From Bolinopsis microptera (taxonomy: Eukaryota > Ctenophora > Tentaculata > Lobata > Bolinopsidae): a stretch of 64,000 nt of DNA. The notes under the pieces were generated by a model. The model was given only the letters and a program-made list of their open reading frames with translations, did not search any database and had not been told where the DNA came from. Of the stretch, positions 26,801 through 59,800 are shown in pieces. The DNA lies in NCBI RefSeq assembly GCF_026151205.1, contig NC_087073.1, positions 20,970,658 to 21,034,657 on the forward strand, read 5' to 3'. Both the position numbers and the translations under genes were made by a program. Positions within the stretch are counted from its first letter, which is position 1. Each line of letters starts with the position of its first letter.

Positions 26801-29800
26801 GCGATCATCGGTTTTGTGAAAATTATAATTTATTTATGTTTTAAATTTTCGTACCAATAAGTTGACATCCTTTCGGGGTTTAAAATGTCATTTTTAAACG
26901 ACAACTTAGCTTTAAAATCAACGTTTGCATACCATTGAAAAATAGAACTAGCACAAACCTTGAAATATTTTTGCATGGAATCGACCTGAAAACCACAAAA
27001 CTTTTCCCTCTCCTTTTCTGAAGTGAGTTTATCACAGAATACCCGTGATGTCTCGTGAGCGTAGAGTCTAACTACAGCGTCCTGGGAAGTTAGATCCGCG
27101 GCTCCACAGCTCATCATTCCCAGATAGAACTGAGAATAGGGACAATTTAATTAAGATTACAATTTTAAGACTAAGTTTTCAAGACTAAATCGAGGCTATT
27201 TAATCATTCGCTAGATCGCCACATATCATAGGTCTGCCTTTAGCGAATTATCCTAATGATCAGGGTCACAATCATAGTCATACAGTACGACGAGCCACCA
27301 CCGAACCCTGGCCTTAGCAACCCGGCCTTAGCAACCCTGCCTTAGCAGCACCAACTAATGCACAAACTAATGCACAAAGTAATGAACAAACTAATGCACT
27401 TTGTCTGAAGAAGAACGCCGTCACTAGTTTACCCCTTATTCCTTAACAGGGACAAAAGGATTTCGCGATTATTTTGGCCAAAAATCGCGGTACCGCGAAA
27501 TTTAACAGGCTATACATTAAACTATACATGAAATTTGTCGCGGAGAATGGGAAATTTCGCGATTTCGTACATGCCGCGAAATCCTTTTGTCCCTGTTCCT
27601 TAAACATCACTCACACGAGCAAGTTCAGGTTGTTGTTTTGTAAGGGTCCCTCTATTGGATCCTTTTGCAACCTCCTTATTAACCGGTATTGACACTTTTT
27701 GGTTTGATAACATTTACTGGTAACGGATTTACTGGTAACGGATTTACTGGTAACGGGTTTACTGGTTACGGATTTACTGGTTACGGGTTTACTGGTTGAG
27801 GATTTCTCTTTGGATTTCGGATTTGATTTTAGTACCGCTGATCTGATATTATCTACGTTGTAATTATATAGATATATTTTCATAAAACTTGTAAAACTAT
27901 TTTGAGCGCAATACCGACCATTATTACATGTGAAGTACCTGTCGGAGAGAGTGCATGTTGAACATGTAATGTAGTTTGGAGGGTTTAGGTTTGAAGCTCA
28001 TCATGACCTGTTGATAAAGGTACAGTCCGGCTGTACACAGCGGTCCAACTGTTCTCTGGACCTCCTCCGGGAAACTGAGGAGACAAATAGTTGTTAACAA
28101 GGTGAATACGGGGGGGGGGGGGGGGCCTGAATACCTGTCCATAGCTAGTGTTAACAAGGTGAATACGGGGGGGGGGGGGGGGGCGGGGGCTGAATACCTG
28201 TCCATAGCTAGTGTTAACAAGGTGAATACGGGGGGGGGGGGGGCGGGGGCTGAATTTACCTGTCCATAGCTAGTGTTAACAAGGTGAATACGGGGGGGGG
28301 GGGGGGGGGGCGGGGGCTGAATACCTGTCCATAGCTAGTGTTAACAAAGTGAATACGGGGGGGGGGGGGGGGGGGCGGGGGCTGAGTACCTGTCTATAGC
28401 TAGTGTTAACAAGGTGAATACGGGGGGGGGGGCTGAATACCTGTCCATAGCTAGTGTTAACAAGGTGAATACGGGGGGGGGGGGGGGCGGGGGCTGAATA
28501 CCTGTCCATAGCTAGTGTTAACAAGGTGAATACGGGAGGGGGGGGGGGGCGGGGGCTGAATACCTGTCCATAGCTAGTGTTAACAAGGTGAATACAGGGG
28601 GGGGGGAGGGGGCGGGGGCTGAATACCTGTCCATAGCTAGTGTCAACAAGGTGAATACGGGGGGGGGGGCGGGGGCTGAATTTACCTGTCCATAGCTAGT
28701 GTTAACAAGGTGAATACGGGGGGGGGGGCGGGGGCTGAATACCTGTCCATAGCTAGTGTTAACAAGGTGAATACGGGGGGGGGGGGGGGGGCGGGGGCTG
28801 AATACCTGTCCATAGCTAGTGTTAACAAGGTGAATACGGGGGGGGGGGAGGGGGCGGGGGCTGAATACCTGTCCATAGCTAGTGTCAACAAGGTGAATAC
28901 GGGGGGGGGGGGGGGGGGCGGGGGCTGAATACCTGTCCATAGCTAGTGTTAACAAGGTGAATACGGGGGGGGGGGGGCGGGGGCTGAATACCTGTCCATA
29001 GCTAGTGTTAACAAGGTGAATACGGGGGGGGGGGGGGGGGGCGGGGGCTGAATACCTGTCCATAGCTAGTGTTAACAAGGTGAATACGGGGGGGGGGGGG
29101 GGGGCGGGGGCTGAATACCTGTCCATAGCTAGTGTTAACAAGGTGAATACGGGGGGGGGGGGGGGGGGGGCTGAATACCTGTCCATAGCTAGTGTTAACA
29201 AGGTGAATACGGGGGGGGGGGGGGGCGGGGGCTGAATACCTGTCCATAGCTAGTGTTAACAAGGTGAATACGGGGGGGGGGGGGGGGGGGAGAGGGGGCG
29301 GGGCTGAATACCTGTCCATAGCTAGTGTTAACAAGGTGAATACGGGGGGGGGGGGGGGGGGCGGGGGCTGAATACCTGTCCATAGCTAGTGTTAACAAGG
29401 TGAATACGGGGGGGGGGGGGGGGGCTGAATACCTGTCCATAGCTAGTGTTAACAAGGTGAATACGGGGGGGGGGGGGCGGGGGCTGAATACCTGTCCATA
29501 GCTAGTGTTAACAAGGTGAATACGGGGGGGGGGGGGGGGGGGCGGGGGCTGAATACCTGTCCATAGCTAGTGTTAACAAGGTGAATACGGGGGGGGGGCG
29601 GGGGCTGAATACCTGTCCATAGCTAGTGTTAACAAGGTGAATACGGGGGGGGGGGCTGAATACCTGTCCATAGCTAGTGTTAACAAGGTGAATACGGGGG
29701 GGGGGGGGGGGGGGGCGGGGGCTGAATACCTGTCCATAGCTAGTGTTAACAAGGTGAATACGGGGGGGGGGGGGCGGGGGCTGAATACCTGTCCATAGCT

Positions 29801-32800
29801 AGTGTTAACAAGGTGAATACGGGGGGGGGGGCGGGGGCTGAATACCTGTCCATACCTAGTGTTAACAAGGTGAATACGGGGGGGGGGGGCGGGGGCTGAA
29901 TACCTGTCCATAGCTAGTGTTAACAAGGTGAATACGGGGGGGGGGGGGGCGGGGGCTGAATACCTGTCCATAGCTAGTGTTAACAAGGTGAATACGGGGG
30001 GGGGGGGGGGGGCGGGGGCTGAATACCTGTCCATAGCTAGTGTTAACAAGGTGAATACGGGGGGGGGGGGCTGAATACCTGTCCATAGCTAGTGTTAACA
30101 AGGTGAATACGGGGGGGGGGGGCGGGGGCTGAATACCTGTCCATAGCTAGTGTTAACAAGGTGAATACGGGGGGGGGGGGGCGGGGGCTGAATACCTGTC
30201 CATAGCTAGTGTTAACAAGGTGAATACGGGGGGGGGGGGGGGCGGGGGCTGAATACCTGTCCATAGCTAGTGTTAACAAGGTGAATACGGGGGGGGGGGG
30301 GGGGGCGGGGGCTGAATACCTGTCCATAGCTAGTGTTAACAAGGTGAATACGGGGGGGGGGGGCTGAATACCTGTCCATAGCTAGTGTTAACAAGGTGAA
30401 TACGGGGGGGGGGGGGGGGGCGGGGGCTGAATACCTGTCCATAGCTAGTGTTAACAAGGTGAATACGGGGGGGGGCGGGGGCTGAATACCTGTCCATAGC
30501 TAGTGTTAACAAGGTGAATACGGGGGGGGGGGGCGGGGGCTGAATACCTGTCCATAGCTAGTGTTAACAAGGTGAATACGGGGGGGGGGGGGGGGGGGCT
30601 GAATACCTGTCCATAGCTAGTGTTAACAAGGTGAATACGGGGGGGGGGGGGGGCGGGGGCTGAATACCTGTCCATAGCTAGTGTTAACAAGGTGAATACG
30701 GGGGGGGGGGGGGCGGGGGCTGAATACCTGTCCATAGCTAGTGTTAACAAGGTGAATACGGGGGGGGGGGGGGGGGGGGGGGCGGGGGCTGAATACCTGT
30801 CCATAGCTAGTGTTAACAAGGTGAATACGGGGGGGGGGGGGCGGGGGCTGAATACCTGTCCATAGCTAGTGTTAACAAGGTGAATACGGGGGGGGGGGGC
30901 GGGGGCTGAATACCTGTCCATAGCTAGTGTTAACAAGGTGAATACGGGGGGGGGGGGGGGGGGGGGGGGGCGGGGGCTGAATACCTGTCCATAGCTAGTG
31001 TTAACAAGGTGAATACGGGGGGGGGGGGGGGGGCTGAATACCTGTCCATAGCTAGTGTTAACAAGGTGAATACGGGGGGGGGGGCTGAATACCTGTCCAT
31101 AGCTAGTGTTAACAAGGTGAATACGGGGGGGGGGGGGGGGCGGGGGCTGAATACCTGTCCATAGCTAGTGTTAACAAGGTGAATACGGGGGGGGGCGGGG
31201 GCTGAATACCTGTCCATAGCTAGTGTTAACAAGGTGAATACGGGGGGGGGGGGGGGGGCGGGGGCTGAATACCTGTCCATAGCTAGTGTTAACAAGGTGA
31301 ATACGGGGGGGGGGGGCTGAATACCTGTCCATAGCTAGTGTTAACAAGGTGAATACGGGGGGGGGCGGGGGCTGAATACCTGTCCATAGCTAGTGTTAAC
31401 AAGGTGAATACGGGGGGGGGGGGGCGGGGGCTGAATACCTGTCCATAGCTAGTGTTAACAAGGTGAATACGGGGGGGGGGGGGGCGGGGGCTGAATACCT
31501 GTCCATAGCTAGTGTTAACAAGGTGAATACGGGGGGGGGGGGGGGGCGGGGGCTGAATACCTGTCCATAGCTAGTGTTAACAAGGTGAATACGGGGGGGG
31601 GGGCGGGGGCTGAATACCTGTCCATAGCTAATGTTAACAAGGTGAATACGGGGGGGGGGGGGGCGGTGGCTGAATACCTGTCCATAGCTAGTGTTAACAA
31701 GGTGAATACGGGGGGGGGGGGGGCTGAATACCTGTCCATAGCTAGTGTTAACAAGGTGAATACGGGGGGGGGGGGGGGGGCGGGGGCTGAATACCTGTCC
31801 ATAGCTAGTGTTAACAAGGTGAATACGGGGGGGGGGGGGGGGGGGGCTGAATACCTGTCCATAGCTAGTGTTAACAAGGTGAATACGGGGGGGGGGGGGG
31901 GGCGGGGGCTGAATACCTGTCCATAGCTAGTGTTAACAAGGTGAATACGGGGGGGGGGGGGGGGGGCTGAATACCTGTCCATAGCTAGTGTTAACAAGGT
32001 GAATACGGGGGGGGGGGGGGGCGGGGGCTGAATACCTGTCCATAGCTAGTGTTAACAAGGTGAATACGGGGGGGGGGGGGGGGCGGGGGCTGAATACCTG
32101 TCCATAGCTAGTGTTAACAAGGTGAATACGGGGGGGGGGGGGGGGGGGGGTAGGAGTTCTGGCTGTGACTGGTTGACTAACATGATTACTTATTAGCCTA
32201 GATATTAGATAGGTGTTTTCAATAATAACAGTATTGGACCTGTTGATGATGTAGTATCTGCCAAGTTTAGCCTGTAGAATGTGTTGGGTGGTGGAGAGAG
32301 TGGGTGTGGGCATGTTGATAACACTGAAGTATTGGAGAAGTCTGCTCGGGATGTTGACTGGTACTCGACCTGATACCGTACAAGTAGCTGCGATCGTGAC
32401 GTCGTCTACTGACTGCGGGGATATAGTCAGACTTGGCAAACAGCCAAAACAAAGATATAATTTGACACTCGTTTTTTATGATCTGAGAAATTGATAGAGG
32501 TGGCAGTTAACAGCAGATATTTTGGAGGTATTTCTACAACTGAATCGGCTAGTTATTAAATAACCTTGTTGAATGGGAAAAATGTCGGATAGGCCAAGGA
32601 ATTTCTTAAATGAGATTGTCGGTCTACTTGCTCAGAATTCAGATATTTTAAAGTAAAAAGGACCTTCTACTACTCTTATTCTGTATCACATATCGTCCAC
32701 TACAATCACTCATTTCCCAACTGCAAGTGTTGAAGGCTACAGTATGCACTGCATACTAGACATTATCAGTGAAGTATTTGACCCGGACCTCACGTACGCG

Positions 32801-35800: not shown

Positions 35801-38800
35801 TATTCGACTAATGCCTTTGTGATTCTATTAGATGCCGCAAAATCTCTTGGAGCCATCTCATTAGCTCTAAATTGATTTACTCCCGATTAATGTTCCTTCC
35901 TGGTTGACGTCTTACTCATTAGATGGCTCCTAGAAAGAGAATACAGTTTCCTTCAACCATTTTTGTAGTCCAACTTACGAGAGTTTTTGTGAAACTAACA
36001 ATTTCGATTGTACTTTGAAATTACTTGTAACAATTAAAATTTGTCATTAAAACCACCCGGGCACCGTCCCGGTTTACAACCAATCAATGTGTCGCCCCGA
36101 GTGCAGCACATTAATCTCATTTACAATAATAGATGCGAATTGGTGGTGAAACAAAATAATTTAGATGCGTAACAATGGATCTGGGAATTGACTTGTCAAT
36201 GCTGGATGCTGATTGGTTAATCACGTCCCCGCCAGTATCCAGATCTATTAGTTTTGCTAAACTCGACCTAGTGAAGCATTCATAATTCATATGTGATCTG
36301 TAAATTGTAATTTACATAAACGATGCTTTAATGTTTATGATGTTTGGTTATGAGGCATCTGATCACGTATATATTTATATTATATAAGGTTCATTTGTGG
36401 CGATACATACCCCACATCATCCCATCATAATATAAGACAACTGTTTTTAAAATAAGCATCGAGTTTTCATTCAAGTTTAACAAAATGTTTATTCCTAGCT
36501 TGCTAGATTTTGTTGATACAGGGTGTTCCAAGACTCTATTTTATGAAGGAGCAAATTAGATGCAATCGTTTTAGGAATGCTTCATAGGTCTTACATTTTC
36601 GTTATTTCTTGCAAAATCGTCTCAAAACTCATTTTTTTCTTCACAATTTTGCATTCTTTTAAAATTTCAAAATCTGCTATATCAGACGATCACCCCTAGG
36701 GCGCGAGGTACAGAGGCCACAGCTGTAGTCCTTTATAACGGGGTAGACTAGTTTAAAGCCAGATCAGCAAATCAATAAAATAAAATCATGAGCAAATTGG
36801 TTTTTATCAAAATATTATCATCTAGTTTCGCCAATTGTCAATATCTGATTCAGTTTTGAAAAATGGATCATGAAATTTAGTTATGAAGGGAGGAAAATTC
36901 CAAGGTTCCACCCCTCAGTGATTCAAAGACTCAAAATATTTTTTGAGGAGAAAGCTTTGTGCCATCCATTTTGCATTCCTTGATTGTGCAGTAAAGTTTT
37001 TACAGGCCCTAAAATTACAGGCCCTTAAAAGCTTAATTACAGGCCCTAAAATGACGACCTGTTTCTCACCAGATATTATCAACTAATCGTTTTCTTCAGG
37101 GGCTGCTTGCTGCTTAATTAATGACATTATTGCTGTAATGACATTTGTCAAGCAATAATCGGCATCATGCTCAACGTCTGATTTATGAAATCTTCCCATA
37201 CATTATTATTAATTGGATTAGCTTATTAGGCGGGCAAGCAGCAAACCCTTTTTACATCGTCTCAACTCGTTCTAGACTTGATCCTCATGTGTCTTTACAC
37301 TTTATCACGCAGAAGGTCAGTCCTCTATTATCTTATTTTCCCAAAATGCTCTTGGTTTGTTCTCAAGATATTGATCGGCTCTGTAATTTATGAACTATTA
37401 GAAAACTCGAACTGCTCACGCTCACATCATGCAGTTACATTGATGAGTTGTTTGACAGTTGACTGACAATTTTGACTACAGCAGTGCCACAGAACAATAA
37501 TCTTCTATCGCAAAAATTCTATAGATTGAATAATTAATATTCTTTGCGTCAAAATATATATCTGTTATTTTTATTCTGTCTCGGTAATAGAGCAATTAAT
37601 ATATTACTAAACGGCTTCCATCAGTTATTCAGATAAAGGACACATTTATCAGTTTCAAAATGAAAACCAAAAGCAATTTTCATAGCCTATAAACAAGTGA
37701 GAGAGTTATGGCAGATGAAGAGGTGGACACGAAGCTTAATGTGGTCGGTATGGTCGGACTCATTGTCTTCTATCTCATCATTTTCTTCGCTGGAATTCTT
37801 TCACACAAGTAAGCATTATATATTAATTACTCGACTGAATTTTTTTCGATATCGTTGCTTTACAGTTTGCACGACTAAGTAGGCAAAGTAATCTTATAAT
37901 TATTAAAGATTATTAAGCCCACCACCAAATTCAGAGTGCTAAAGAGGAAAGGAAGGAAGGAAATCCAAAAGACCCAGGTGGCTAACCATACTGAAGACAT
38001 GATGTTGGCTGGTCGGGACATCAACTACTTCGTGGGCGTCTTCACCATGACAGCAACGTGGGTTGGGGGAGGTTATATAAACGGTAAGCCCCAGTAAACA
38101 TCAGTCTGCATCAGTACACCATGGAAAAGGCATCAACTTCATCGTTAGTTGGCGTCTCTTCTGTATCGACCTGCGTGAAGGGCCCTGGATGGTAAGCTTA
38201 AATTGTCGTTGATTTTTTGATCTAAATGTTCGTGATGTTATGATATCACGTGATATTATGATCTGCCTGTCATTTTAATTCGAGCATTTTGATGTTTTTC
38301 GCTCTGATCAGACTCGAATAGGGACAATTTTTATTAGAGAAAAAGTTTCGTTTAATCGTGAAATATCTTATCCGAAGTTCATTAAAAATATTCGAGTCCG
38401 ATCAGGCAACAACAAGAAATCCGAACTAAATGCTAGAGACAAAAGGAGGCTGCACTATGAGACATGAGACTTCTGCTTCAAACGCTTTCAAAGCAGAGTT
38501 TACCAACTTTTCTCAACGAGACTAATCATGCTAACTATGAACTGCTTTTCAGAAAGGTTCAGCTAATGACATCATTTTCCTTCAGCAAGGCACATTGGCA
38601 GACAAAGATTTCTTGCAAACCCGCATTTTCAGTTCATGACAGAAGAAAGTCAAAAAATCAACGACAAAAATATTTAAGCTTTACTTAGTAAACCGAAAAT
38701 CCCCGAAAAATATACTTTTATGTTATGTCCAGTTGTGATATTTAATCTTGATAAACATGTATTTATTATTCTTTTTAACAATCATGTAACAACAAACCTC

Positions 38801-41800
38801 TTCTCATCAGACTTTCTCAATCCAGATTTCGAAGTGTTCCCACTTTTATTAAGGTTACTGAATACTCAACCGATTTATACCCAGATAATAACTTTTAACT
38901 TTTTAGGGACAACCGAGTCCGTTATCAAGAATGGGTTAGTCTGGACACAAGCCCCTATCGGTTACTCAATTTCACTGTTTTTGGGTGGCCTTTTTTTTGC
39001 CGAGAAGATGAGATCAAAGAGTTATGTGACGATGCTTGATCCACTGCAAATAAAATACGGCAAACCCCTCGGAGCTTTCTTTTACATCCCTGCTTTTGCT
39101 GGAGAGGTTGGTAACTTTCACTTTCACTTTCATAAAATATTAACAAGAGGATCTGGAAATATAGTAAAAAAAGTTAAATTCAAACATAATTGACCTTAAA
39201 TAATTTCAGATTCTTTGGTCCGCATCCTATCCTAGCTGCTCTGGGAACTTCTCTCCGAGTAATCTGTGGTATTAATGACACGGCCTCCATTATCGTCAGT
39301 GCTGCAATTGCTATGACCTACACTCTTTTCGGAGGTTTGCAACAGGGTTTTGTCTTTGTGTGATCCGCGATCGTGACCAACATTATAACCCAATAATCAA
39401 TCCAACCTTATAATCAAGAATTTAACTAAATTTTATATTTAGATTTCAGTTCCATTTAGCATACTATTATGTTAAACATATAATTTTCAGGATTATATTC
39501 GGTTGCGTTCACAGATATTATCCAGTTGATCTGTATCTTTGTTGGTCTTATCTTCTCGATACCTTGGATGACAGGAAATGCTGCTGTGACCATGCCACTC
39601 CAGGCTGGTAACGTGATCATGTTCCAAGGAAAGCCAGGAAACTTGGAGTACAGCAAGTTTTATGGAAAGCTTGACAAGGACGATGTCGGAATTTGGGTAG
39701 GAAGGCTGTTTCAATAAACTTGAGAAACTTTGCGACAAGTTTGATCAATTATAATAATATCACCCAGCCATAAAGTAACTTATGTGGTATTAATAGGATT
39801 CTAAATCTTATATTTCAGATCGACTATGCCATTATGTTGATGTTTGGAGGGATCCCATGGCAGGCTTACTTCCAGCGTGTCCTCTCCTCAAGGGACGTCA
39901 GTGTTGCTAAAACCCTCTCTTTCTGTGCGGCATTCGGTTGCTTCTGTGCCGCCATCCCTTCAATTGTGATAGGTATGGAACTCATTTCGAGTTAAAGTTT
40001 AAGAGACACGTTTAAATGTGGACTGATAATTGACAGTTATTCGGAGAAATCCTGCTTGAACTTGAGTAAAAATCCCTGAGTGAACCTCTTATCAAAACCC
40101 TGAGTGAATGTCATTGAAACATTACAAATTATCCAACAGCTTTGATAACGATGAACACTGATTGGCCTGCTACTGAGTACGCAAGGGAGCTGATCCCAGA
40201 TAACTACAAACTAGCCGTCCCCCTGACACTACTCTATCTTACACCACCAGGCGTTGCTTTTATCGGTACGTTGGACTGACAGCTGGAAAACTTACTATTT
40301 TCTAATATTTACTCTTTCAACGCACCAATTAGATATTAGAACAAGGAGTCCTCGTTGGGTCCCGAGGAGTCCTAATCCTCCTCGCGCCCTGGATGTCGTT
40401 TCTCTTGTCTCTTATATAGCTACGATCCCTCATATTCATACTTCTTGATTTCTGATCCTATTTTAAATACCGCAGGTCTTGGAGCAGTCAGTGCTGCCGT
40501 AATGAGCTCAACCGACAGTTCAATCCTTGGAGTTAGTACTATGTTCACCAGGAATGTCGTTGTAAACGTATTCTACAAAAATGCAAGCGACAAGTACGTC
40601 TACGGTCTAATAGAATTATTTGGAACGAATGGGAGAAAATAGGGGGAGGGTATAGGGGGTATGGGGGAGGGGGTATGGAGGGGGGGGGGGGGGTTATGGG
40701 AAGGAGACATGGTAGGGATGCGGGGGAACAATAGTGAACGATTTTGAAAACTGTTTAATTGGGACCCTTTCGTACGGCTGTAATTAGTAAAAATACGAAA
40801 TCGATTATAATTGTATTCTTATACTTGTAAACACTATAATCTCAGAGTTACTGTATGAATTTAACCAATGCTCTTTTTAAATTTAAAATTACTACTCCTA
40901 TGATTTGGCGTATTTTGTTAATTTTTGCATACATCTACTAATTTCAATTACGGCAAATCCACTACTTTTCAGATTTACAACCTGGTTCCTCCGAGGCACT
41001 ATCCTTGTGAACACAATAATAGCTATGTTGATCGCTATATTCGTTAAAACTGTTTACGGTCTCTACCTCATCTGCAGGTAATTATATATATAGGTACTGC
41101 AGGTAAATGCATATTGTGGGGACACAACATCTGCAGGTAAATGTATATTATTGTGAGGAATTCACACCAATGAGTAAATATGCGGCAGTAAGTAATATTT
41201 CGTTAATTTTGACGACCTGTAATAAGATAACGAAGGCTACAAGAAGAGACAGTAATTAATTATTTCATTATAATATTGCCTGTAGAAAACAATGTCGCAA
41301 GATATCAGCATTCTGATGAAGGAGCACTAACAAATAATCACAATATCACATACAAAATATTGATTGGAATTTAATCAAATTTCGAATAATTTATAGGAAA
41401 TGAGCAGAACCGGTGTTGCATTTACCTTTCAGTGACTTGTAACAACACCGTGTACCCCTCAGTGACTTGTAACAACACCGTGTACCCCTCAGTAACTTGT
41501 AACAACACCGTGTACCCCTCAGTGACTTGTAACAACACCATGTACCCCTCAGTGACTTGTAACAACACCGTGTACCCCTCAGTGACTTGTAACAACACCG
41601 TGTACCCCTCAGTGACTTGTAACAACACCGTGTACCCCTCAGTAACTTGTAACAACACCGTGTACCCCTCAGTGACTTGTAACAACACCGTGTACCCCTC
41701 AGTGACTTGTAACAACACCGTGTACCCCTCAGTGACTTGTAACAACACCGTGTACCCCTCAGTGACTTGTAACAACACCGTGTACCCCTCAGTGACTTGT

Positions 41801-44800
41801 AACAACACCGTGTACCCCTCAGTGACTTGTAACACCACCGTGTACCCCTCAGTAACTTGTAACAACACCGTGTACCCCTCAGTGACTTGTAACAACACCG
41901 TGTACCCTTCAGTGAATTGTAACAACACCGTGTACCCCTCAGTGACTTGTAACAACACCGTGTACCCCTCAGTGACTTGTAACAACACCGTGTACCCCTC
42001 AGTGACTTGTAACAACACCATGTACCCCTCAGTGACTTGTAACAACACCGTGTACCCCTCAGTGACTTGTAACAACACCGTGTACCCCTCAGTAACTTGT
42101 AACAACACCATGTACCCCTCAGTGACTTGTAACAACACCGTGTACCCCTCAGTGACTTGTAACAACACCATGTACCCCTCAGTGACTTGTAACAACACCG
42201 TGTACCCCTCAGTGACTTGTAACAACACCATGTACCCCTCAGTGACTTGTAACAACACCATGTACCCCTCAGTGACTTGTAACAACACCGTGTACCCCTC
42301 AGTAACTTGTAACAACACCGTGTACCCCTCAGTAACTTGTAACAACACCGTGTACCCCTCAGTAACTTGTAACAACACCGTGTACCCCTCAGTAACTTGT
42401 AACAACACCGTGTACCCCTCAGTGACTTGTAACAACACCGTGAACCCCTCAGTGACTTGTAACAACACCGTGTACCCCTCAGTGACTTGTAACAACACCG
42501 TGTACCCCTCAGTAACTTGTAACAACACCGTGTACCCCTCAGTGACTTGTAACAACACTATGTACCCCTCAGTGACTTGTAACAACACCGTGTACCCCTC
42601 AGTAACTTGTAACAACACCGTGTACCCCTCAGTGACTTGTAACAAAACCCTGTACCCCTCAGTGACTTGTAACAACACCGTGTACCCCTCAGTAACTTGT
42701 AACAACACCGTGTACCCCTCAGTAACTTGTAACAACACCGTGTACCCCTCAGTAACTTGTAACAACACCGTGTACCCCTCAGTGACTTGTAACAACACCG
42801 TGAACCCCTCAGTGACTTGTAACAACACCGTGTACCCCTCAGTGACTTGTAACAACACCGTGTACCCCTCAGTGACTTGTAACAACACCGTGTACCCCTC
42901 AGTGACTTGTAACAACACCGTGTACCCCTCAGTGACTTGTAACAACACCGTGTACCCCTCAGTAACTTGTAACAACACCGTGTACCCCTCAGTGACTTGT
43001 AACAACACCCTGTACCCCTCAGTGACTTGTAACAACACCGTGTACCCCTCAGTAACTTGTAACAACACCGTGTACCCCTCAGTGACTTGTAACAACACCG
43101 TGTACCCCTCAGTGACTTGTAACAACACCGTGAACCCCTCAGTGACTTGTAACAACACCGTGAACCCCTCAGTGACTTGTAACAACACCGTGTACCCCTC
43201 AGTGACTTGTAACAACACCGTGTACCCCTCAGTAACTTGTAACAACACCGTGTACCCCTCAGTGACTTGTAACAACACCGTGTACCCCTCAGTGAGTTGT
43301 AACAACACCGTGTACCCCTCAGTGACTTGTAACAACACCGTGTACCCCTCAGTGACTTGTAACAACACCGTGTACCCCTCAGTGACTTGTAAGAACACCG
43401 TGTACCCCTCAGTGACTTGTAACAACACCATGTACCCCTCAGTGACTTGTTACAACACCATGTACCCCTCAGTGACTTGTAACAACACCATGTACCACTC
43501 AGTGACTTGTAACAACACCGTGTACCCCTCAGTGACTTGTAACAACACCATGTACCCCTCAGTGACTTGTAACAACACTATGTACCCCTCAGTAACTTGT
43601 AACAACACCGTGTACCCCTCAGTGACTTGTAACAACACCGTGTACCCCTCAGTGACTTGGTGTTCATCCTGCTCTTCCCCCATTTGATGCTGGTGGTCCA
43701 CTTCCCCAAGCGAACCAACAAGTACGGAATGTTCTGTGGCTTCTTTACAGCCCTCTTTCTGAGAGTTCTATCCGGAGAACCTGTGCTGAAGTACAACGCG
43801 ATTATCAAGTACGCAGGATACGTGGAACCTGGCAAGGATGACGAGGTAAGTTATTTCTTTTTATTATGCTTAAGTGGCAGCGTAAGTTATTTATGAGGTC
43901 ATCTTCTTTTAACAGTTCAATCTCAATTAATGTTCTTTAATTATATAACCCTAACTTGCCGTATAATAAATAAAACAATATCTTTCAATGCCAGGGCAAC
44001 GACACGTACGGTTATCAGCGGTTCCCGTTCCGAAACCTGATCATGATTCTCAATTTCATCATAACCCTATCCGTCACTTTTCTGTCACAGAAACTTTTCC
44101 AAACATGTAAGTTTTATGGAGGTTCCCTTTCCGTTATTTATTTCTGATTTTATAAGTAAACATTGAACTAATTAGTAAACAGTGAGATAATTAGTAAACA
44201 GTGAGCTAATTAATAAACAGTCCCATGATTTATAATTATCGCAGTGTTCATAGGATTCAAAATGATTCATTGCATCGAAATGAAAGTTGAACCACATTTT
44301 CAGACCCTGAACTACGAAAGTACGATTATCTAGGAGCGGTCAAAGATGGCGAACAAGAACTGGAGATGGAGAAGAAAAAGGGAGACTCAGGGAAGAAAAC
44401 CACTGAGGGTGATATCTAGACTTTCTAGTGATCAACTGAAGGATTGACCATCAACAATTTACCAACATGATATCATATCACGTGTTGTATGTAGCGTAGA
44501 TATAACTTAGTTCAGATCTTAATTTCCTATCAAATATGAATAAAAATATAAATTAGCTGTTTAACTAAATATTCGATATATTTTCCATGTATAATGTATA
44601 TATTCTACAGTTTTTCTACCTCGATTCTGAATTATGGAAATTGAGATGAACAGTGAACACCCAGCAAACCTATCAGCAGTTTATTTGGTTATCCTTCATG
44701 AGGCAAAGCTTTTTAACACGCCCTGTTTGGATAACCGTTAGAGTTTTAACGTTTTACTCGCGTAGTCACATGAGTATTTTGAGTATTATTACTATTAGTA

Positions 44801-47800
44801 GTATTTTGATTATTATTGTCTCAATGTTCCATAATTAGTACTAATTATACCTACTTAGGCTTGTTGTTTTTTGTGTGCTTATGTTTAAATAACATGTAAA
44901 GCTGTTTAATTAATCCCATTTTTACAAAAAGTTAAACATGAAATAAAGAGAAAGTGAAACTGGGATGTTAAACGCGAGTCACAAAGTCTCGTGATGAACA
45001 TTACGTATCATTATGCTGAAGACGTAGTTTATATAAACATATATCATCATAAACATTTAATGTTACACAGCGACCTTCCTTTACAGCTGGCATTCTCTCT
45101 TCTGCTTTTGTAGATAATTTGTGCTTTTTTCGCTATCAAATAAGTCTCTCAATTCGTTATTAGACATTTTCAGGCTTTTAAGCTAGACTTATCAACGAAA
45201 TAAGTAATTATAATTTGATAGTTGGGGACGAAGTGAGAGTCTAAACTCATTGTTTAATACAAATATTTGTCGACGTTTCGGCACACGCCTTTGTCATGTA
45301 TCAAATTATAGTTTCAAACTAATTACAACACTAGTACAAATCTATCACATTTATTGAGGACGTTACAGAAGGAATTATTTTAATGTCCTAACTCTCCTCA
45401 CGTCCGAATATGATCGGACCCAAAAACTCACAAGACCCAAAAAAGATTACTGAAATCAGTAATTATTTTACTGTCCAATTACCCGTCCAAATATCAGAAC
45501 GTGGGAAAAATAAATTATATTTAATTATACAATTCAGGAGTGTTGCTCTGCGTTTCAGCCGCTTACTTTAATGACGAAGACTGATTTAAATACAATATTG
45601 CAAAAACTGAAACAATTGTGTGATTTTGGCGTGTAACGTTTGAAAAGGTTCGTATCGTGTTCCGGTATTCGTCTCAATTTTTCCTTTCCAAAAATTATCA
45701 CTTTTTTATTATTTTCACTCTGCAGGCGTTTTTCAAAATTGTAATTCAAAATTTGGACATCTGTACCCCCCCCCCCCCCCCCCCCCCCCCCAGTCCACCC
45801 CGGCCCCCACTTCCTCCCCTGTTGCAGCATTGCACACTTATAAAGCACAGGTAGCAGCTTAGAACTAGGGCTTAGGAAACCATACAGATTTGTTTGTGTC
45901 ACATACCGCCGTACCTGTCGGTTTTTTGCCACAATTTTGAAAGAGTGAAAATTTGGAATGGGAAGAAAGCTTATAAAGTTTTTGAGAAAACACGTACACC
46001 AAAATTTTAAACTAAGAAACTCGCATTTCACGGAAACGGTACTTCACTTTTTGGTTTTTGGCAATAGTTTGAACTAAAGAATTTAAGAAATAGTAAGCCC
46101 AGTCCAATATGGCAGTTGTAGTGGACCTGTCCTCACTCTGGGATAACACATTTAAACATTGCTACTTTATCAGTTTATATTTATAGTGTCTCGGTGTTAT
46201 CATGCTTGTAAGATTACCTTAACCAGCTAATAGTTATACTAACCAGCCTGCCAGAGCGTGCAACCTGTATATTTAATTGCTAAATATGCTGCAATTATTA
46301 CAGTGTGTTGACTGTGTAATATTTAATAAACTGTGATATCTAATAGTTATAAAACTGTAAACAACATTTAACACTACCCTCCCTCATGGACCTACCTCTC
46401 CGTTCTCCTTATCGAATATGCTGTTTTTATTTATCCTCTTGAGTATAGCGTCGAGTATGACAGACTTGCCGATACCCGCGTGACCGGCTAGCAGTATTTT
46501 AGCGTTTCCCAGCAGAAGAAGTTCTACAACTCGTGCTAATTTCACCGAGTCCAGAGTTGGGATCGGCATGTCCACCTGGTGTGATTCGTTTAATACTTTC
46601 TAATATGTATGGGTTATTTACAACTGCAGAGTGCAGATAATAGAATATTAGCGTTACCTTTAATACTAATATTGATAAAATTGTGAAATTGTCATAGTAT
46701 TGATATGCACACAGTTTTAGTGTCAACCTTCTCATAATTCAACCTTGATCGACACGTTAGCTGATTCGTTTGATAAAACAAGTTCTAACCCATATTTAAA
46801 TTATCTGTAATGTTTAGTATTGTTGAAAGTTTTACAACTTTAACTTTAAAAGTTCAATTTAAAAGTTGTAATACTTTCAACACTACTGTAAAACAAAGAA
46901 TGGCTATGACGTTGTACGCAGGAAAAGAAACTTCTCTTATCCATTAAAACTTTGTCCACAAATTAATAGTTTTTATCTATCAAGGTGTTTTTTCGAGCGG
47001 CGCTGCAACTTTTCTTTAAACGCATTAAAAATGTTAAAATGCTGATAATCCATACCTGGTTACCTGGTTACCTGGTTACCTGGTTGCATGGTTACCTGGT
47101 TACCTGGTTACCTGGTTACCTGGTTACCTGGTTACCTGGTTACCTGGTTACCATACCTCCATCCAAGCGTTAGCTAGTGCACTGCTCCCCCCGGTTAGCT
47201 CGAACCCAGTCTTAACGTCGTCAATATAAGCGTTGGTTGCAGGCAGCAAGGTGTCCCACTGGGAGAAGAGACCGCTCTCTATGTCGAAGTAGTAGCAGAA
47301 AACACTCTTCACCCCCGAGGGTAGTCGCACACCATAGGGAGGCGGCAAGTCAAAGAAGTCTCGGACGAACAAATCGAATGAGGCTCTAGCGGATATGTCG
47401 GGGTTGGAACCCCATATCTTCATGAGAGATTGTTTGGAGTGACCTCCGAGTGCTGTGTGGGAGTCCATAGCCTCCAGTGCGCTGTCGTCCATGTCTGAAT
47501 CTCCTGAAATTAATAGATGTGTCAACTTTTGTGACTATTTATTTTAGCAGTACTAGTCGGACTTGAAATCTGCTCACGATACTGTGATTTGATGTAAACT
47601 TAATTAATAATTTGTAAAATATGGGTCACGATTAACGCAGTATCGTTGGATCGTAATTTACAAATCCGTAGCAAAGTAAAATACCTTGTAGTCGTATATA
47701 TTGTAAGAGTTCATTATGTCAAGATACAGACTAATACTAGTCTTAAACTCTGCCCAAATTGTGTCTAGTCTGGACCAATGCTCAGTGACGTCACATCTGA

Positions 47801-50800: not shown

Positions 50801-53800
50801 GTCTACCTCAAACAGGATCCTCATTCGTGGGAGGAGCGGCACTCTCTCACCTGGGAGAGCAGATCTAGTGTAATTTTGAAAGGACATTAAAATGACCCCT
50901 CGAAGGCATTCATGACCAGGATTTAATTTAATTACTTTATCGGACTTTATTTGAACGGACATTAAAATTAACGCTAGGGCCTCCAGCGTCCAATTAATGT
51001 CCGTTCAAATAAAGTCCAATAAGGTAAATTTATGAATATCCTTCTGGAGATTTGTTCCTATTCATAAATAATGAATGAGACTAAAATATTGATGATAACC
51101 GAGTTTATTAACCGTTGGCAAGACAAAGGGTCCTGGTGTCATCTAGAACTGTGTTGAGATTCTCAACCCAGACTGGATCAACTGGCCCATCCAGCACCAA
51201 CCACTTCCAGTTCTGAAACGTCTTAGTGATTACATGCGACATTGTGACAAGAGAGCTATCAAATGGGCCTAATTAGGTCGTTAATTAGAGTAATAGCTTA
51301 ATAGAGTTGAGATAGATTAGAAACTTAGAAAGTTAAATAAAGTCGACAGATAAAATATGTTATGAATCTCACATTAGTAACGAGATCACTTTTAGCGTTG
51401 CTGGAAGGAGTCTCTGGAAGGGATCTGTGATCATCTGTCGGGGTCGGGGCACCTGTAAAAGGGAAATTTAAATCCTCTTGATAAATGTATTAGTAGTAAG
51501 ACTTCTCAGATACGTTTTAATCAAAATTATGACTTTAATAACGTGGCTGATGGTTTTAACACGCCCATTTCTCTTTGCATTTTCACGGTCTATTAGTTGA
51601 CAAGAATGCAATAGAGCAATAATTTTTTCTGAGTTGAGTAAGTTAAGTTAGCTAGCTGGAGAGTAACCCTCATCAAGTTAAGGAGATACTATCAATAATA
51701 TAATCTGCTAAAAACCCATAAAACGTCCGCGCTATAAAATAGAAGCTGCTATCAGCATACCAGTATTATGATACCACACATACGAATGTATCCGTGGACT
51801 AGTAAAGTGCTGTAAACTATGTGGCTTCTCCAGTGCTGAGTAAGCACTCATATTATCGTCTGAGTCAACTTAGCATTTCCTTGAATTATCGTGTTCTATC
51901 AAAGTGCTCACCTATCGTTTAGAATTTGAGGTGCTTCAAAAAGTTTTCAACGTGTTAACGGATAAATATTTCTAAAACTTGAATAAATCAGGGAAAGTCA
52001 AATTATTCGAATACCCGTCGGAATTTCCGTCAAACCAATGACGTGGAAACCTCCAGTTAGATGACTTTTAATTGCATTAGAATTTGTATAGTGTAAACTA
52101 GTAAGTTTTTAATGCAGTAGCTGTGTTACGATAGGAGGTTGTAAGAAGTGTCACTCGGGAACCACTCCAACCATCACTTGGGAACCACTCCAACCATCAC
52201 TTGGGAACCACTCCAACCATCACTTGGGAACCACTCCAACCATCACTTGGGAACCACTCCAACCATCACTTGGGAACCACTCCAACCATCACTTGGGAAC
52301 CACTCCAACCATCACTTGGGAACCACTCCAACCATCACTTGGGAACCACTCCAACCATCACTTGGGAACCACTCCAACCATCACTTGGGAACCACTCCAA
52401 CCATCACTTGGGAACCACTCCAACCATCACTTGGAAACCACTCCAACCATCAATTGGGAACCACTCCAACCATCACTTGGGAACCACTCCAACCATCACT
52501 TGGGAACCACTCCAACCATCACTTGGGAACCACTCCAACCATCACTTGGAAACCACTCCAACCATCACTTGGGAACCACTCCAACACTCACTTGGGAACC
52601 ACTCCAACCCTCACTTGGGAACCATTCCAACCATCACTTGGGAACCACTCTAACCTTCACTTGGAACCACTCCAACACTCACTTGGGAACCACTCCAACC
52701 CTCACTTGGGAACCACTCCAACCCTCACTTGAGAACCACTCCAACCTTCACTTGGAGACCACTCCAACCCTCACTTGGGAACCACTCCAACCATCACTTG
52801 GAAACCACTCCAACCATCACTTGGGAACCACTCCAACCATCACTTGGGAACCACTCCAACCATCACTTGGGAACCACTCCAACCATCACTTGGGAACCAC
52901 TCCAACCATCACTTGGGAATCACTCCAACCATCACTTGGGAACCACTCCAACCATCACTTGGGAACCACTCCAACCATCACTTGGGAATCACTCCAACCC
53001 TCACTTGGTAACCACTCCAACCCTCACTTGTGAACCACTTCAACCCTCACTTGGGAACCACTCCAACCCTCACTTGGGAACCACTTCAACCCTCACTTGG
53101 TAACCACTCCAACCCTCACTTGTGAACCACTCCAACCCTCACTTGGTAACCACTCCAACCCTCACTTGTGAACCACTTCAACCCTCACTTGGGAACCACT
53201 CCAACCCTCACTTGGGAACCACTTCAACCCTCACTTGGTAACCACTCCAACCCTCACTTGTGAACCACTCCAACCTTCACTTGGTAACCACTCCGACCAT
53301 CACTTGGGAACCACTCCAACCATCACTTGGGAACCACTCCAACCATCACTTGGGAACCACTCCAACCATCACTTGGGAACCACTCCAACCATCACTTGGG
53401 AACCACTCCAACCATCACTTGGGAACCACTCCAACCATCACTTGGAAACCACTCCAACCATCAATTGGGAACCACTCCAACCATCACTTGGGAACCACTC
53501 CAACCATCACTTGGGAACCACTCCAACCATCACTTGGGAACCACTCCAACCATCACTTGGAAACCACTCCAACCATCACTTGGGAACCACTCCAACACTC
53601 ACTTGGGAACCACTCCAACCCTCACTTGGGAACCATTCCAACCATCACTTGGGAACCACTCTAACCTTCACTTGGAACCACTCCAACACTCACTTGGGAA
53701 CCACTCCAACCCTCACTTGGGAACCACTCCAACCCTCACTTGAGAACCACTCCAACCTTCACTTGGAGACCACTCCAACCCTCACTTGGGAACCACTCCA

Positions 53801-56800
53801 ACCATCACTTGGAAACCACTCCAACCATCACTTGGGAACCACTCCAACCATCACTTGGGAACCACTCCAACCATCACTTGGGAACCACTCCAACCATCAC
53901 TTGGGAACCACTCCAACCATCACTTGGGAATCACTCCAACCATCACTTGGGAACCACTCCAACCATCACTTGGGAACCACTCCAACCATCACTTGGGAAT
54001 CACTCCAACCCTCACTTGGTAACCACTCCAACCCTCACTTGTGAACCACTTCAACCCTCACTTGGGAACCACTCCAACCCTCACTTGGGAACCACTTCAA
54101 CCCTCACTTGGTAACCACTCCAACCCTCACTTGTGAACCACTCCAACCTTCACTTGGTAACCACTCCGACCCTCACTTGGGAACCACTCCAACACTCACT
54201 TGTGAACCACTCCAACCCTCACTTGGAACCACTCCAATACTCCTAATTTGCCACCGTAATCTGTTGGAGCATTTTGAGCTTCTCGGAAAGGTTCCAAATG
54301 CGGTCAAATGTTGAGGTCACAGCATGGAGGATTGAGTTGTTGCCAAGAGTTTTAGTATTTGTGTTTTCCTTGTTTATCGAGCAGTTTGGTGGTCACGCAT
54401 CATGTGACATGTATACTGAAATGATAAAGTAACGGAACTAGAAGTCCCCAGTTCATAGTTTGCTTGCTTCATTAGTTCATTAAGAGATGTGTCTTTATCA
54501 TGTTATGAAAACAAATGTCTCTCCCTGGGCTCTCTCCCTTGTTTAATTGTTTTCGCATGTATCCCTCAGTATTTCATACGCTGTGTTAAATACCTTTCAC
54601 TCTTTAGTTGGAGATACTTCCTCATTCATGTTATTACTACTACTACTACCTTATTCATGTTATTACTACCACCTTATTATTACTACTATTTACTATCACA
54701 GTTACCGCTAGCCACTTCGCTCTGTCTATCTTTCTACAACTTCATAATAATATGACATTATGCTCCGGCTTATTAATTAAATTAAACGGAATGGAATAAG
54801 CCTTTATTTACAGAGCAGCCCTGGTCAGCCGCGTAGCCGCAATGGAACTTGTGGTTTTGAGGTTGACTGAGCCCGGACAGTGACTAGTGCCGGTTTATCG
54901 CCAGCTTGCACCGTGGTTAATGAAATGCACCACGGCCCGGTGCTTTCTCGCTTCGTCTAGCTATTTGTTCAATTAGTTTCACCAAAATTCAACCTTTTTA
55001 TTGCACAGTAAATCGAATTTATCGCAAGTGTGAAGCTTTTAGTTTGTAAATGTTTGTATCTCAGCACAAGCAACCGTTTCCGCAACGTTACCCTATCTTC
55101 AACTTACAACAAGGATATTTAATTACCGGGCTGTGTTTTTATATTCGAGTTGTGTTTTTCTGCTCAAATATTTAATTTAATATCCTAGCTTGTGTCTATG
55201 GAAAACTTTTTTCACACTAGTTATATATCTAGGTAGGTTAGGTATCTTTTGCATTTAGTTAGGCGTCTTTTGCATTTTTCGTTCTGCCCGTTTTTGTTTG
55301 TTGAAACGAAGAAATAAGTGTAAAATGATACAATTGGCAGAGCACAGAACAAAGGTTTATTTCATGTTCATTTCCCACCTTTAAATTGGAAATAAAGCGA
55401 CCAGTTCAATATATACTATACAGTATAATAGTTGGCACAAACTTTCGAGCGGCCAATTAGAAAGTTCTATCTACATCCGTAGTGCACTTCCAGCACACAA
55501 CTTCAAAAGAGTGGTAATAACAAAAGAAGCTTGCTCAGTGGGGTGTTAGCTAAGCTACACTCTGCTTATATCAGAACTAAGAGTCTAACAGCTATTGTCT
55601 GATACACTGCCACCCCTCCACGCAGTACACTGCCACCCCTCCACGCGGAACAATTAAACGACTGTTGGAGATTTACCGTACACAGGGTGGTACAGCGTCT
55701 CCAATAAGATCTTATAGTCTCCTTTATTGTCATATTTCTCACATTGTTTCTAGCCGAGCAATTAATTTCATAGAAGAGCAGTTTAACTTAAGCTAAAGCA
55801 GAAACTTGTTTGATCTTTGCGCTTTACTCGTCATTTGTTATATCCAACATTGATTTAGTTTTATGAGCGGTATTACTAATGTTATTATATTAATTACAAC
55901 GTTTTTAGCCCTTCTTATGTGATCCCGTTATCTTTATAGGCGGTGGTAATTGGTATGAATGAGTGACTAAGGCCACTTGGTAATGTAGCTAGGCGCAGTT
56001 GGGGCATACTGCATAGTTGGGGCACAAAATTAAAATTCCTGTCTAGTGTCTACGGTTAATGAAATGCGAAAATATAGCAAGTGCTTGTTCATGTTTCTTG
56101 TTAAAAAGTTCAGCAAATATTTCATTTACGAATAAGTTGACAGTAAGGAAGTTATAGCAGGCCTGTCAGCTCATCAAATTATTTTGCGCTAAACATAAAA
56201 AATATTATATGTTTAACTTCACTATTTAGATATGCGACTGCTGTAGTATTATAATCACTTTTTGCGACTACACAATTTCATCTTTTTCAAAATGATATTA
56301 ACCGTTTTACTTTTATAAACTATTTACAACCTTTGTTTGTTGTTATCAGCTTATTAATATCAGCCGGATGTTTAGTCTTATCTTAGTGCTTATCTTTATG
56401 GTGTGCGGTTAGTTGTCATTCGTCGTTTACATTCAGTATTACCTAAAATATATTCTGATGTTGTTTGAATGAGTAAGTCGTATTTTATCGGATTATATTA
56501 TTATATACTTACTTACTTTACTTTACTTTATATACTGGTATATATATATTATATTACTAGATCAAGTTGAAACATTATAATGTCTGAACTGGACTATTAT
56601 ATTATATTACTGGATCAAGTTGAAACATTATAATGTCTGAAGTCAGAAGTGGTCATTTCAATATTTTTACTTCTCTCGATATATTTACTAAAATTCGATC
56701 AATAAGTTTATCAAAATATCATAAGTCGTTTTGATTAGATCTATGGTAAACAACTCAGTGTACTCTCCCTTTCAGCAGTATTCGTATTAGTTCTTCCTAT

Positions 56801-59800
56801 TTTAGCTGCTTATTTCATGTTCTTGTCTCTTCAGATAAACTTATTTCTAGAAGGCAGTTTTTCCCAAGTTCCCACGTTTTAAAAATGGTAAATAGAGCAC
56901 AATATATACCTGATTTTCACAATTTTAGTCAGTCATTCTAAAAGTCAGATTTTAACCGATGAATGTACAGTACAGTTAGCACGATAAGATAGATACGAAA
57001 ACATGGCCGACGTAGAAGTAGATCCTATCGATGTCCCGGATAAGCTGGAAAAGAAGCTGAATGTCGTTGGCATGGTCGGACTCATCGTCTTCTATCTTAT
57101 CATTTTCTTCGCTGGAATTCTTTCTCACAAGTAAGTAATATTTGATGCTTTATTAGTAAACGATTAAATCGCATGTAAAACGTAACCATCGCCTCCCCAT
57201 AAAATCTGGGTAAGGGGCCAAAAAGGGCCAAATTTTTATTGAGGTTTCTAAACATTTTGGGGAAAAAAAGTCAAATATTTGTTCGGTTTTCGAAGTCCGC
57301 ACCTACCCTTCGATGTACGATTTTGGACTCGAGGTTCCCCTTTGCAATGCTATCTCGGAAGGCAGGCCTCCCCTCCGCAATACGAGCTCGGAAGCGGGAG
57401 CTCGGAAGCGGGAGCTCTGCCTTCAGAGGTACGTATCAAGAATGAATCAGACCGACAATTTTTCAAAGTTTTTCTAGAAACTACTTTTGTTCATGTTTCA
57501 TGCTACCCTGATCATTATGAGCCGAAAATATTATTTCGGTTTTCTGAAGTCTGTACCTACATTCGGTCTTCGGAAGGCTGTGGATGTGATTGGTTTCATA
57601 TACTTATACAAAACGTGATATTTGGCCCGCAGATTTAAAGGAAAATACGCGAATTTGGTCCTCAGATTTAAAGGAAAAATCGTGATTTGTCGCGGAGAAC
57701 TGAAAAATCACGATTTGTCGCGAGGATCTGAGAAAATCGCGATTTGTTGCGGCAAACGTGAAAAATCTTCACTCTACGAGTTTAACAATTTCCTAATAAT
57801 AGAGTGCTGAGGAGAAAATCAAGAAAAGATATCAGGAAGACACAGGTTGAAAATGAAACTGAAGACATGATGTTGGCTGGTCGGGACATCAACTACTTCG
57901 TGGGCGTTTTCACCATGACAGCAACGTGGGTTGGGGGAGGTTATATAAACGGTTAGTTTCAATAACAACTTTTGTGTGTCTAAAATACTGAACACTGACG
58001 ATGAAGTATGAATACAAGATTAAACCTCATTTTATACGGCTTGCTTTTAATCTGTTATTTAAAATAACTTATTTTACTTACAAAATATGAATAAAAAGTA
58101 AAAACTCCTATTTTCTTCTTTCTTTCTTTTTTAAACAAATATACCAGGAACCGCGGAGTCTGTGATAAAGAACGGTCTTGTCTGGACACAAGCTCCGATA
58201 GGTTATTCAATATCTCTCTTCCTGGGGGGCTTGTTCTTTGCGGAGAAGATGAGGAAGAGAAAGTTCGTGACAATGTTAGATCCTCTGCAGGAGAAATACG
58301 GAAAACCTCTCGGAGCTCTCTTCTACATCCCCGCTTTCTCAGGCGAGGTACGCTTACAAATACAACTCACATGCATGAAACACTGTACATGCAATGCTTA
58401 CTTATAAGGTTTAGATAGCTTGCCAAGATATAATCAAATAGTTGATGTGGTTTTATAATTCCTGGATTTGATTTTTAAACAATTTCAGATTCTTTGGTCC
58501 GCATCCATCCTAGCTGCTCTGGGAACTTCACTCAGAGTCATCTGTGGTATTGATGATACTACGTCTATCATTGCCAGTGCAGCCATAGCAATGACCTATA
58601 CTCTGTTCGGAGGTATGCATGTACATTATACATTACTTGTACTTTGTTGCAAAATTCAAATATTGCAGGGGTTTTTCGTTGAAGATCGACTTTAGAGTAA
58701 CCATCACAAAATAGCGAGGGAGTTATTTGTTGAACGTTTAACTAACAACAGCTAAATTCTATTTCAGGGTTATACTCCGTGGCCTTTACCGATGTTTTCC
58801 AACTGATATGTATATTCTTTGGATTGATATTCGCCATTCCATTCATGGCAACTAGCCATAATGTGGATATTCCTCTGAGGAGTTCCAATTTGACCATGTT
58901 CATGGATCAGGACCAAACTTACTCCAAGTTCTTTGGAAAGCTTGACAAGGAAGATGCAGGAGTTTGGGTAAACGATGATTATAACAATAACTTTGTAACA
59001 AATGGTATTACCTTTACAGGGGTCGGGGAGAGCGCCACCTCAGTCAGGGATCCCCAATCCAGCTTATTTAACTGAATGCTATAATAATTTACCTCATTAA
59101 CACACTTCATACAAAGGGGCAGTCTTCTATTCTTCTCAGAGTTCCGAGTTAATCATTACAAATTCCCTCCTCACGTCCATTTCTCAAGACTAGTTATTAT
59201 TCAGGTTGACTATGCCATCATGCTGATGCTTGGAGGAATCCCATGGCAAGCGTACTTCCAGCGAGTCCTGTCAGCTAGAGATGTCAGCGTTGCTAAGACC
59301 CTTTCCTTCATTGCTGCTTTCGGGTGCTTCTCTGCTGCTATTCCTTCTATTGTAATTGGTGAGTTGTGTGTGAGACAGAATCGAGACAGAAATTAAAATA
59401 CTTAGGTATCTGCAAAACTAAATTCACAGATAAATAGATTATATCCTTATTTTTATAACATCCCTGGTAATTGTAATTTGTATGCGCTCCATATAATGAC
59501 GTCTTTAAAAACAGAAAACAACAATTTTTCAGATTATTAGTTTCTTTAACCAATAATAATTTCCAGGTTTGATAACAATGAACACAGATTGGCCAGGCAC
59601 TGACTACGGAGAAATGCTCCTTCCAAAAGATTACAAATTAGCTGTTCCTTTGACTCTGCTCTATCTAACGCCGCCAGCCGTTGCTTTCATAGGTTGGTTA
59701 TTGTTAGCTAATACATATTTTACTTTAAACACAGTAACAATTAATAACTATAGGATTATTTGTATGACAATGAAGAGCATGATCTCCATGATTATCTAAA

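Follow-up and report, generated by a model that had tools for sequence, protein, structure and literature searches.

We analysed a window of 64,000 nucleotides from the ctenophore Bolinopsis microptera (assembly GCF_026151205.1, contig NC_087073.1, positions 20,970,658 to 21,034,657), and observed that intron 9 of a choline transporter gene, CHT-A, ends in a tandem array of 74 units of 30 bp that repeat the junction between intron 9 and exon 10 of this same gene. Judged from its sequence, the array is quite probably a mirage-type minisatellite, i.e. one spanning a splice junction, that has expanded neutrally, and no function would be needed to account for it. The features concerned are listed here (positions are those of the window; a slash within a motif marks a splice boundary or its copy).

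37708 to 44420 (end approximate), plus strand: CHT-A, a relative of the high-affinity choline transporter 1 with 12 exons, frameshifted in exon 4 as assembled.
39210 to 39334, plus strand: exon 4 of CHT-A with the frameshift, 125 nt as against 124 in CHT-B.
40973 to 41077, plus strand: exon 9 of CHT-A, ending ATCTGCAG/GTAATT (from the paralogue alignment and splice signals).
41072 to 41140, plus strand: the intron 9 donor in three copies, CTGCAGGTAA at 41072, 41097 and 41131.
41413 to 41432, plus strand: the tract GTGTTGCATTTACCTTTCAG preceding the first unit (read from the sequence; it outscores the true acceptor).
41433 to 43652, plus strand: the array, 74 units of 30 bp (from Tandem Repeats Finder (TRF), unit-by-unit reading and a genome-wide pattern search).
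43653 to 43845, plus strand: exon 10 of CHT-A, directly after unit 74 (from homology and reading frame).
57003 to 61528, plus strand: CHT-B, the paralogue, with an intact frame of 570 residues and a homologous intron of 549 nt without an array.

By sequence match over the junction, the host gene is SLC5A7-like (high-affinity choline transporter 1). The peptide obtained by joining exons 9 and 10 could be aligned gap-free with the high-affinity choline transporter 1 across the junction, and it matched 8j74 and 9bfi (E about 2e-18 over 108 residues). Exon 10 begins TGACTTGGTGTTC where the array stops. At the homologous place, AG/TGA(C/T) is present in CHT-B, L010, L012 and L014, which are four relatives from this genome. 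None of these four had an array at that junction; a fifth relative, L016, was excluded as a partial match without the exon start. The homology alignment and the array-free junctions of the relatives led us to conclude that the exon 10 boundary is placed correctly and that the array is confined to CHT-A among the copies compared. A preliminary description of this stretch had assigned the junction to the acceptor of choline transporter exon 10 and had called the paralogue's intron array-free; both points stand, the second also for L010, L012 and L014.

The same description had put the array at about 74 units. Unit-by-unit reading gave exactly that number, each of 30 bp and without an indel, with exon 10 following directly at 43653 (TRF called 41429-43659, with period 30, 74.4 copies, 96% matches and 0% indels). 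The unit is laid out as TGACTTG/TAACAACACCGTGTACCCCTCAG, i.e. an exon-10-like start, TAAC, a C-rich tract and CAG. Fifteen unit types occur among the 74, with a mean pairwise difference of 3.5%, and the consensus TGACTTGTAACAACACCGTGTACCCCTCAG is matched exactly by 35 units. The statement that each unit carries the exact acceptor followed by TGACTTG proved too strict. TCAG ends all 74 units and CCCCTCAG ends 72 of them, while TGACTTG starts only 55 of the 74 (the remainder starting with TAACTTG in 17 units, TGAATTG in 1 and TGAGTTG in 1). The invariance of TCAG across units was not significant as a sign of selection (P 0.14). A search of the genome (264,652,675 bases in 232 contigs) that allowed 2 mismatches at most returned 74 matches to the unit, all inside the CHT-A array, and 0 matches to the unit pattern read backwards. 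That the length or the very existence of the array is an error of assembly seems very improbable, given the variety of unit types, the lack of any indel over 74 units and an exon joint confirmed by homology; the copy number could be off.

The gene thus presents 75 3' splice sites in a row, 74 upstream and one at 43653. Their number and similarity had been described correctly, except that the first site is preceded by GCATTTACCTTTCAG, unlike the unit's own tract, and scores higher. This tract ahead of the first unit is probably the original end of the intron. Using an acceptor matrix built from the 31 other acceptors of the window, the first site scored 5.44 and the true acceptor 0.75. Splicing of exon 9 to any of the 74 upstream sites would lead to a stop (after 3 codons at 73 sites and after 13 codons at one), in agreement with the earlier claim that only the last site leads into good coding sequence. 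These early stops, along with a first site that outscores the true one, would suit functional decoys, in which the 74 acceptors bind splicing factors or give rise to a truncated isoform and thereby adjust how much full-length transporter is produced. We consider this very improbable, since the four relatives are array-free, constraint on the AG was not significant, and the arrays seen in unrelated genes (see below) look like a mutational habit. The array could also be imagined as an acceptor farm for spliced-leader trans-splicing, in which a leader is joined to acceptors that lie at a distance from the donor, and the resulting messages lack their 5' part. In the ctenophore Hormiphora many mRNAs carry a spliced leader (PMC8527503, in the part of the text available), but a TAA lies in the exon 10 frame after the inner acceptors, and this explanation is extremely improbable.

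We also evaluated whether the array could be an exon coding for repeats of 10 residues. Among the forward frames, one stays open across 41390-43687; any stop-free unit of 30 bp would yield one. Exon 9 leads into another frame that contains stops, and the open frame enters exon 10 out of frame and stops, so that a coding repeat was rejected and has next to no probability. Microexons of 6 nt, arising by resplicing, were likewise rejected, as the internal GTAAC donor scores -3.5, under all 34 local donors.

Repeats of this kind have been described in amphioxus. The name mirage was introduced with amphioxus Adh3 for tandem repeats that extend across an exon-intron boundary, and such repeats occur also in the globin genes BflGb6 and BflGb9; according to the available part of that report, they can affect either of the two boundaries, AG/GT signals are present in many of the units, and the lengths are unstable, with regular splicing reportedly undisturbed (PMC3087553). 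The CHT-A array likewise spans a boundary and has splice signals in its units, and it resembles BflGb6 in comprising the acceptor and the 5' part of the exon. It differs in having 74 units, as against 6 and 3 in two BflGb6 haplotypes, and in its host, a ctenophore, whereas the mirages in the same part of the report are from cephalochordates, which is another phylum (PMC3087553). No report of mirage-type arrays in ctenophores was found in the literature searched, most subscription papers being beyond its reach. The CHT-A array appears to be a member, and a large one, of a known class of repeats, in an apparently new phylum for this class. This suggests that mirage-type repeats exist in an animal phylum distant from amphioxus, and hints that junction arrays recur in the Bolinopsis genome. 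Two other systems are related to a lesser degree. Intron gain through AGGT-carrying tandem duplication (for example PMC4974935) likewise copies splice signals, but in CHT-A no new intron was observed and it is an existing intron that is lengthened. Intronic variable number tandem repeats that alter splicing (such as that of human ABCA7, PMC5954066) are also intronic tandem arrays with a possible effect on splicing; that of CHT-A contains the gene's own splice site.

Junction arrays were also seen at other places in the genome. CHT-A is flanked by exons of an apparently single antisense dynein heavy chain gene (in the ctenophore Hormiphora such nesting of genes is frequent, as stated in the available part of PMC8527503), and this dynein gene carries the following arrays.

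21368 to 21801, minus strand: a second acceptor array, 12 units of 35 bp, TAACCCAG/GTACAAACTG..., ending in a dynein exon.
21180 to 21281, minus strand: the donor side of the same 114-nt dynein exon, where an 8-bp array occurs and the exon end is present once more together with its donor.
47053 to 47157, minus strand: 8-bp CAGGTAAC-like units starting 4 nt past the dynein donor GATGGAG/GTATGG; they adjoin the junction and do not contain it.

The dynein exon of the first two entries (21281-21394, 114 nt; AAA_8, E 8.1e-9) thus has its acceptor in 12 copies. An array at 6787-6832, near a probable dynein donor, was not counted, as its exon was without Pfam support and the junction lay outside the units. 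Stretches of 10 kb, 20 in number, were also sampled at random (one of them, L020, was all N), and in these TRF found 32 arrays that had a period of 6 or more and 3 or more copies. One stretch alone, L026, was examined closely, having been chosen for its splice-site-like units. At 962-3191 of L026, in an ammonium transporter gene (Pfam E 3.4e-7), a single intron has an array at either end: 14 copies of TTAGAG/GTGAGT including the exon end at the donor, and at the acceptor a 64-bp unit (18 copies by TRF) with TATTTCAG/GTGGGGT.

Three readings of the CHT-A array had been offered at the outset, i.e. decoy acceptors, a molecular ruler and neutral expansion. The neutral reading fits best, because the same anatomy recurs at unrelated junctions, because amphioxus provides a class for it, and because the units carry no sign of selection; decoy and ruler are unsupported, the homologous introns of the four relatives being free of the array. 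The array would have begun when a stretch containing the intron 9/exon 10 boundary was duplicated in tandem in one choline transporter copy, and slippage or unequal exchange would have brought it to 74 units. It retains an intron end on its left and the intact exon on its right, because it straddles the junction. Growth would lengthen the intron only and would hence be tolerated. Expression of the gene would require that exon 10 be joined at the last acceptor, whose intron side equals that of the decoys, and the choice of this last site would then be made by the complete exon and its downstream donor, i.e. by exon definition. Two extra copies of the CTGCAG/GTAA donor are present downstream of exon 9.

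Several observations weigh against this neutral, correctly spliced array. Attempts to reconstruct the seed duplication gave no significant result (P 0.09 and 0.17). The true acceptor scores under all 31 acceptors of the matrix, and 20 of the other 74 array sites outscore it. Intron 9, at 2575 nt, is the longest among the 22 introns of CHT-A and CHT-B (median 182.5), and would be 355 nt with the first acceptor; intron definition would favour this first acceptor, the introns of the two genes being short. Since the first copy outscores the true site and the introns are short, correct splicing is not assured. The remaining point is the frameshift of exon 4, with which the gene may be dead.

The 75 acceptors are nearly alike on the intron side (the first alone clearly differs) and differ in position and downstream sequence, and so offer a natural experiment on how a splice site is chosen. 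Under intron definition, or first-come splicing, the first acceptor should be used, with a 355-nt intron and an early stop; under exon definition it should be the last. Such arrays bear on the lengthening of introns and on a possible origin of new boundaries.

We further considered that CHT-A is dead or dying, a pseudogene in which the array is without consequence for splicing; the mechanism of birth would be the same as in neutral expansion of a live gene, and the splicing puzzle would be gone. CHT-B has an intact frame, while CHT-A does not, as 1 extra nt in exon 4 relative to CHT-B breaks it, and exon 10 of L014 is also apparently frameshifted, so that damaged copies of the family may exist. 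The frameshift of exon 4 may reflect an allele, a pseudogene or an assembly error; errors of this last type seem infrequent, judging from how long the dynein frames stay open. The other CHT-A exons are open, the surroundings of the frameshift having been excluded. The ratio of nonsynonymous to synonymous rates (dN/dS) between CHT-A and CHT-B is 0.127 (0.10 for exons 1-9 and 0.20 for exons 10-12), and junction arrays are carried by other genes as well. On balance, a dead gene is possible but somewhat unlikely. For the relative rate of exon 10 the outgroups contradict each other, and L014 is out of frame.

We also estimated whether arrays are in excess at splice junctions. The set of junctions in the window was drawn up by eye from homology and splice signals; it is incomplete for dynein, and some arrays had been seen before the dynein exons were chosen. 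Local copies were present at 4 of 67 window junctions, as against 2-7 of 67 at eight shifted positions, which is no clear excess, and 21% of 18,230 control positions had a local copy, many within large arrays. The four junctions with copies form two neighbouring pairs (P 0.008, post hoc). Array edges lay within 10 nt of a junction in 3 of 22 cases (expected 0.93, P 0.08) and within 50 nt in 8 of 22 (expected 3.6, P 0.049), with rotation giving P 0.05-0.10 for the edge distances.

Over the whole genome, the donor consensus AGGTRAGT in triplicate gave 2085 matches and its reverse 194, while single copies outside arrays (in 235 kb) numbered 13 and 18, respectively. A scrambled motif gave 1030 matches versus 443 reversed, and one array yielded at least 100 matches. 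Because one array can give 100 matches, we preferred counts of arrays, made by eye among the first 100 listed matches of the 2085 and of the 194. In these first 100 of each, the donor motif formed 7 arrays with 6 distinct units over the first 9.4 Mb, as against 5-6 reversed arrays over 39.7 Mb, so that the rate for donors was 4-6 times that of the reversed motif (P 0.003-0.015). Flanks were taken for the seven donor-motif arrays, which come first along the genome. Two of them sit at exon ends (L044 and L041), another two share one dispersed unit free of exons, and three have no clear exon. The L044 exon resembles that of a probable ubiquitin protease (UCH, E 3.6e-4, below the Pfam cut-off), and the L041 exon is sushi-like by eye (C2-set_3 was best at E 0.01, Sushi gave E 0.048; both below the Pfam cut-offs). 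The acceptor motif, with 186 matches versus 84 reversed, was not above its single-copy ratio of 17 to 5. The evidence for a genome-wide excess at junctions is therefore suggestive for donors alone, and is not shown for acceptors, the kind to which the CHT-A array belongs. The splice-motif content of 54 array units was also compared with that of their reversed selves (donors P 0.05, acceptors P 0.0007, using splice-site matrices); this test is not relied on, because TTTCAG exceeds its reverse outside arrays too (287 versus 147). A broader proposal would be that splice junctions, chiefly donors, are preferred birthplaces of minisatellites in this genome, frequently with arrays at either end of a given intron or exon and with an origin separate from that in amphioxus, and that exon definition lets such genes find the correct site among dozens of near-identical ones despite short introns. 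We advance this only tentatively and regard it as rather doubtful.

Other arrays of the window differ in their relation to exons. At 28092-32149, a dynein intron holds a minisatellite (about 63 bp × 68) whose plus strand is very rich in G and which ends 18 nt from an acceptor. A 53-bp × 16 array at 11534-12382 starts within the last codons of an intronless frame resembling a G-protein-coupled receptor, and its units hence each include the final part of that coding sequence and a TAG. The 23-bp × 91 array at 52151-54237 lies 1 kb off the nearest mapped junction and has no tie to an exon. Units bearing GGTAAC were seen in several unrelated arrays (21218-21260 and 47053-47152 of the window, and the samples L036 and L030). 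On contig C1, one 32-bp unit with a donor consensus forms two arrays with related flanks (36576-37703 and 761375-762150), a dispersed satellite.

Apart from the arrays, 55 aequorin-like matches were found genome-wide, and photoprotein-like frames occur in tandem clusters (on C1, C3, C5 and C13). Searches for COX1 and for GFP gave no match, the GFP search having been run without a positive control. In agreement with a ctenophore as the source, an open frame of 207 residues matched Berovin (E 1.1e-123) and Mnemiopsin 1 (4.6e-121), which we take to be proteins from ctenophores, and Obelin at only 2.5e-18.

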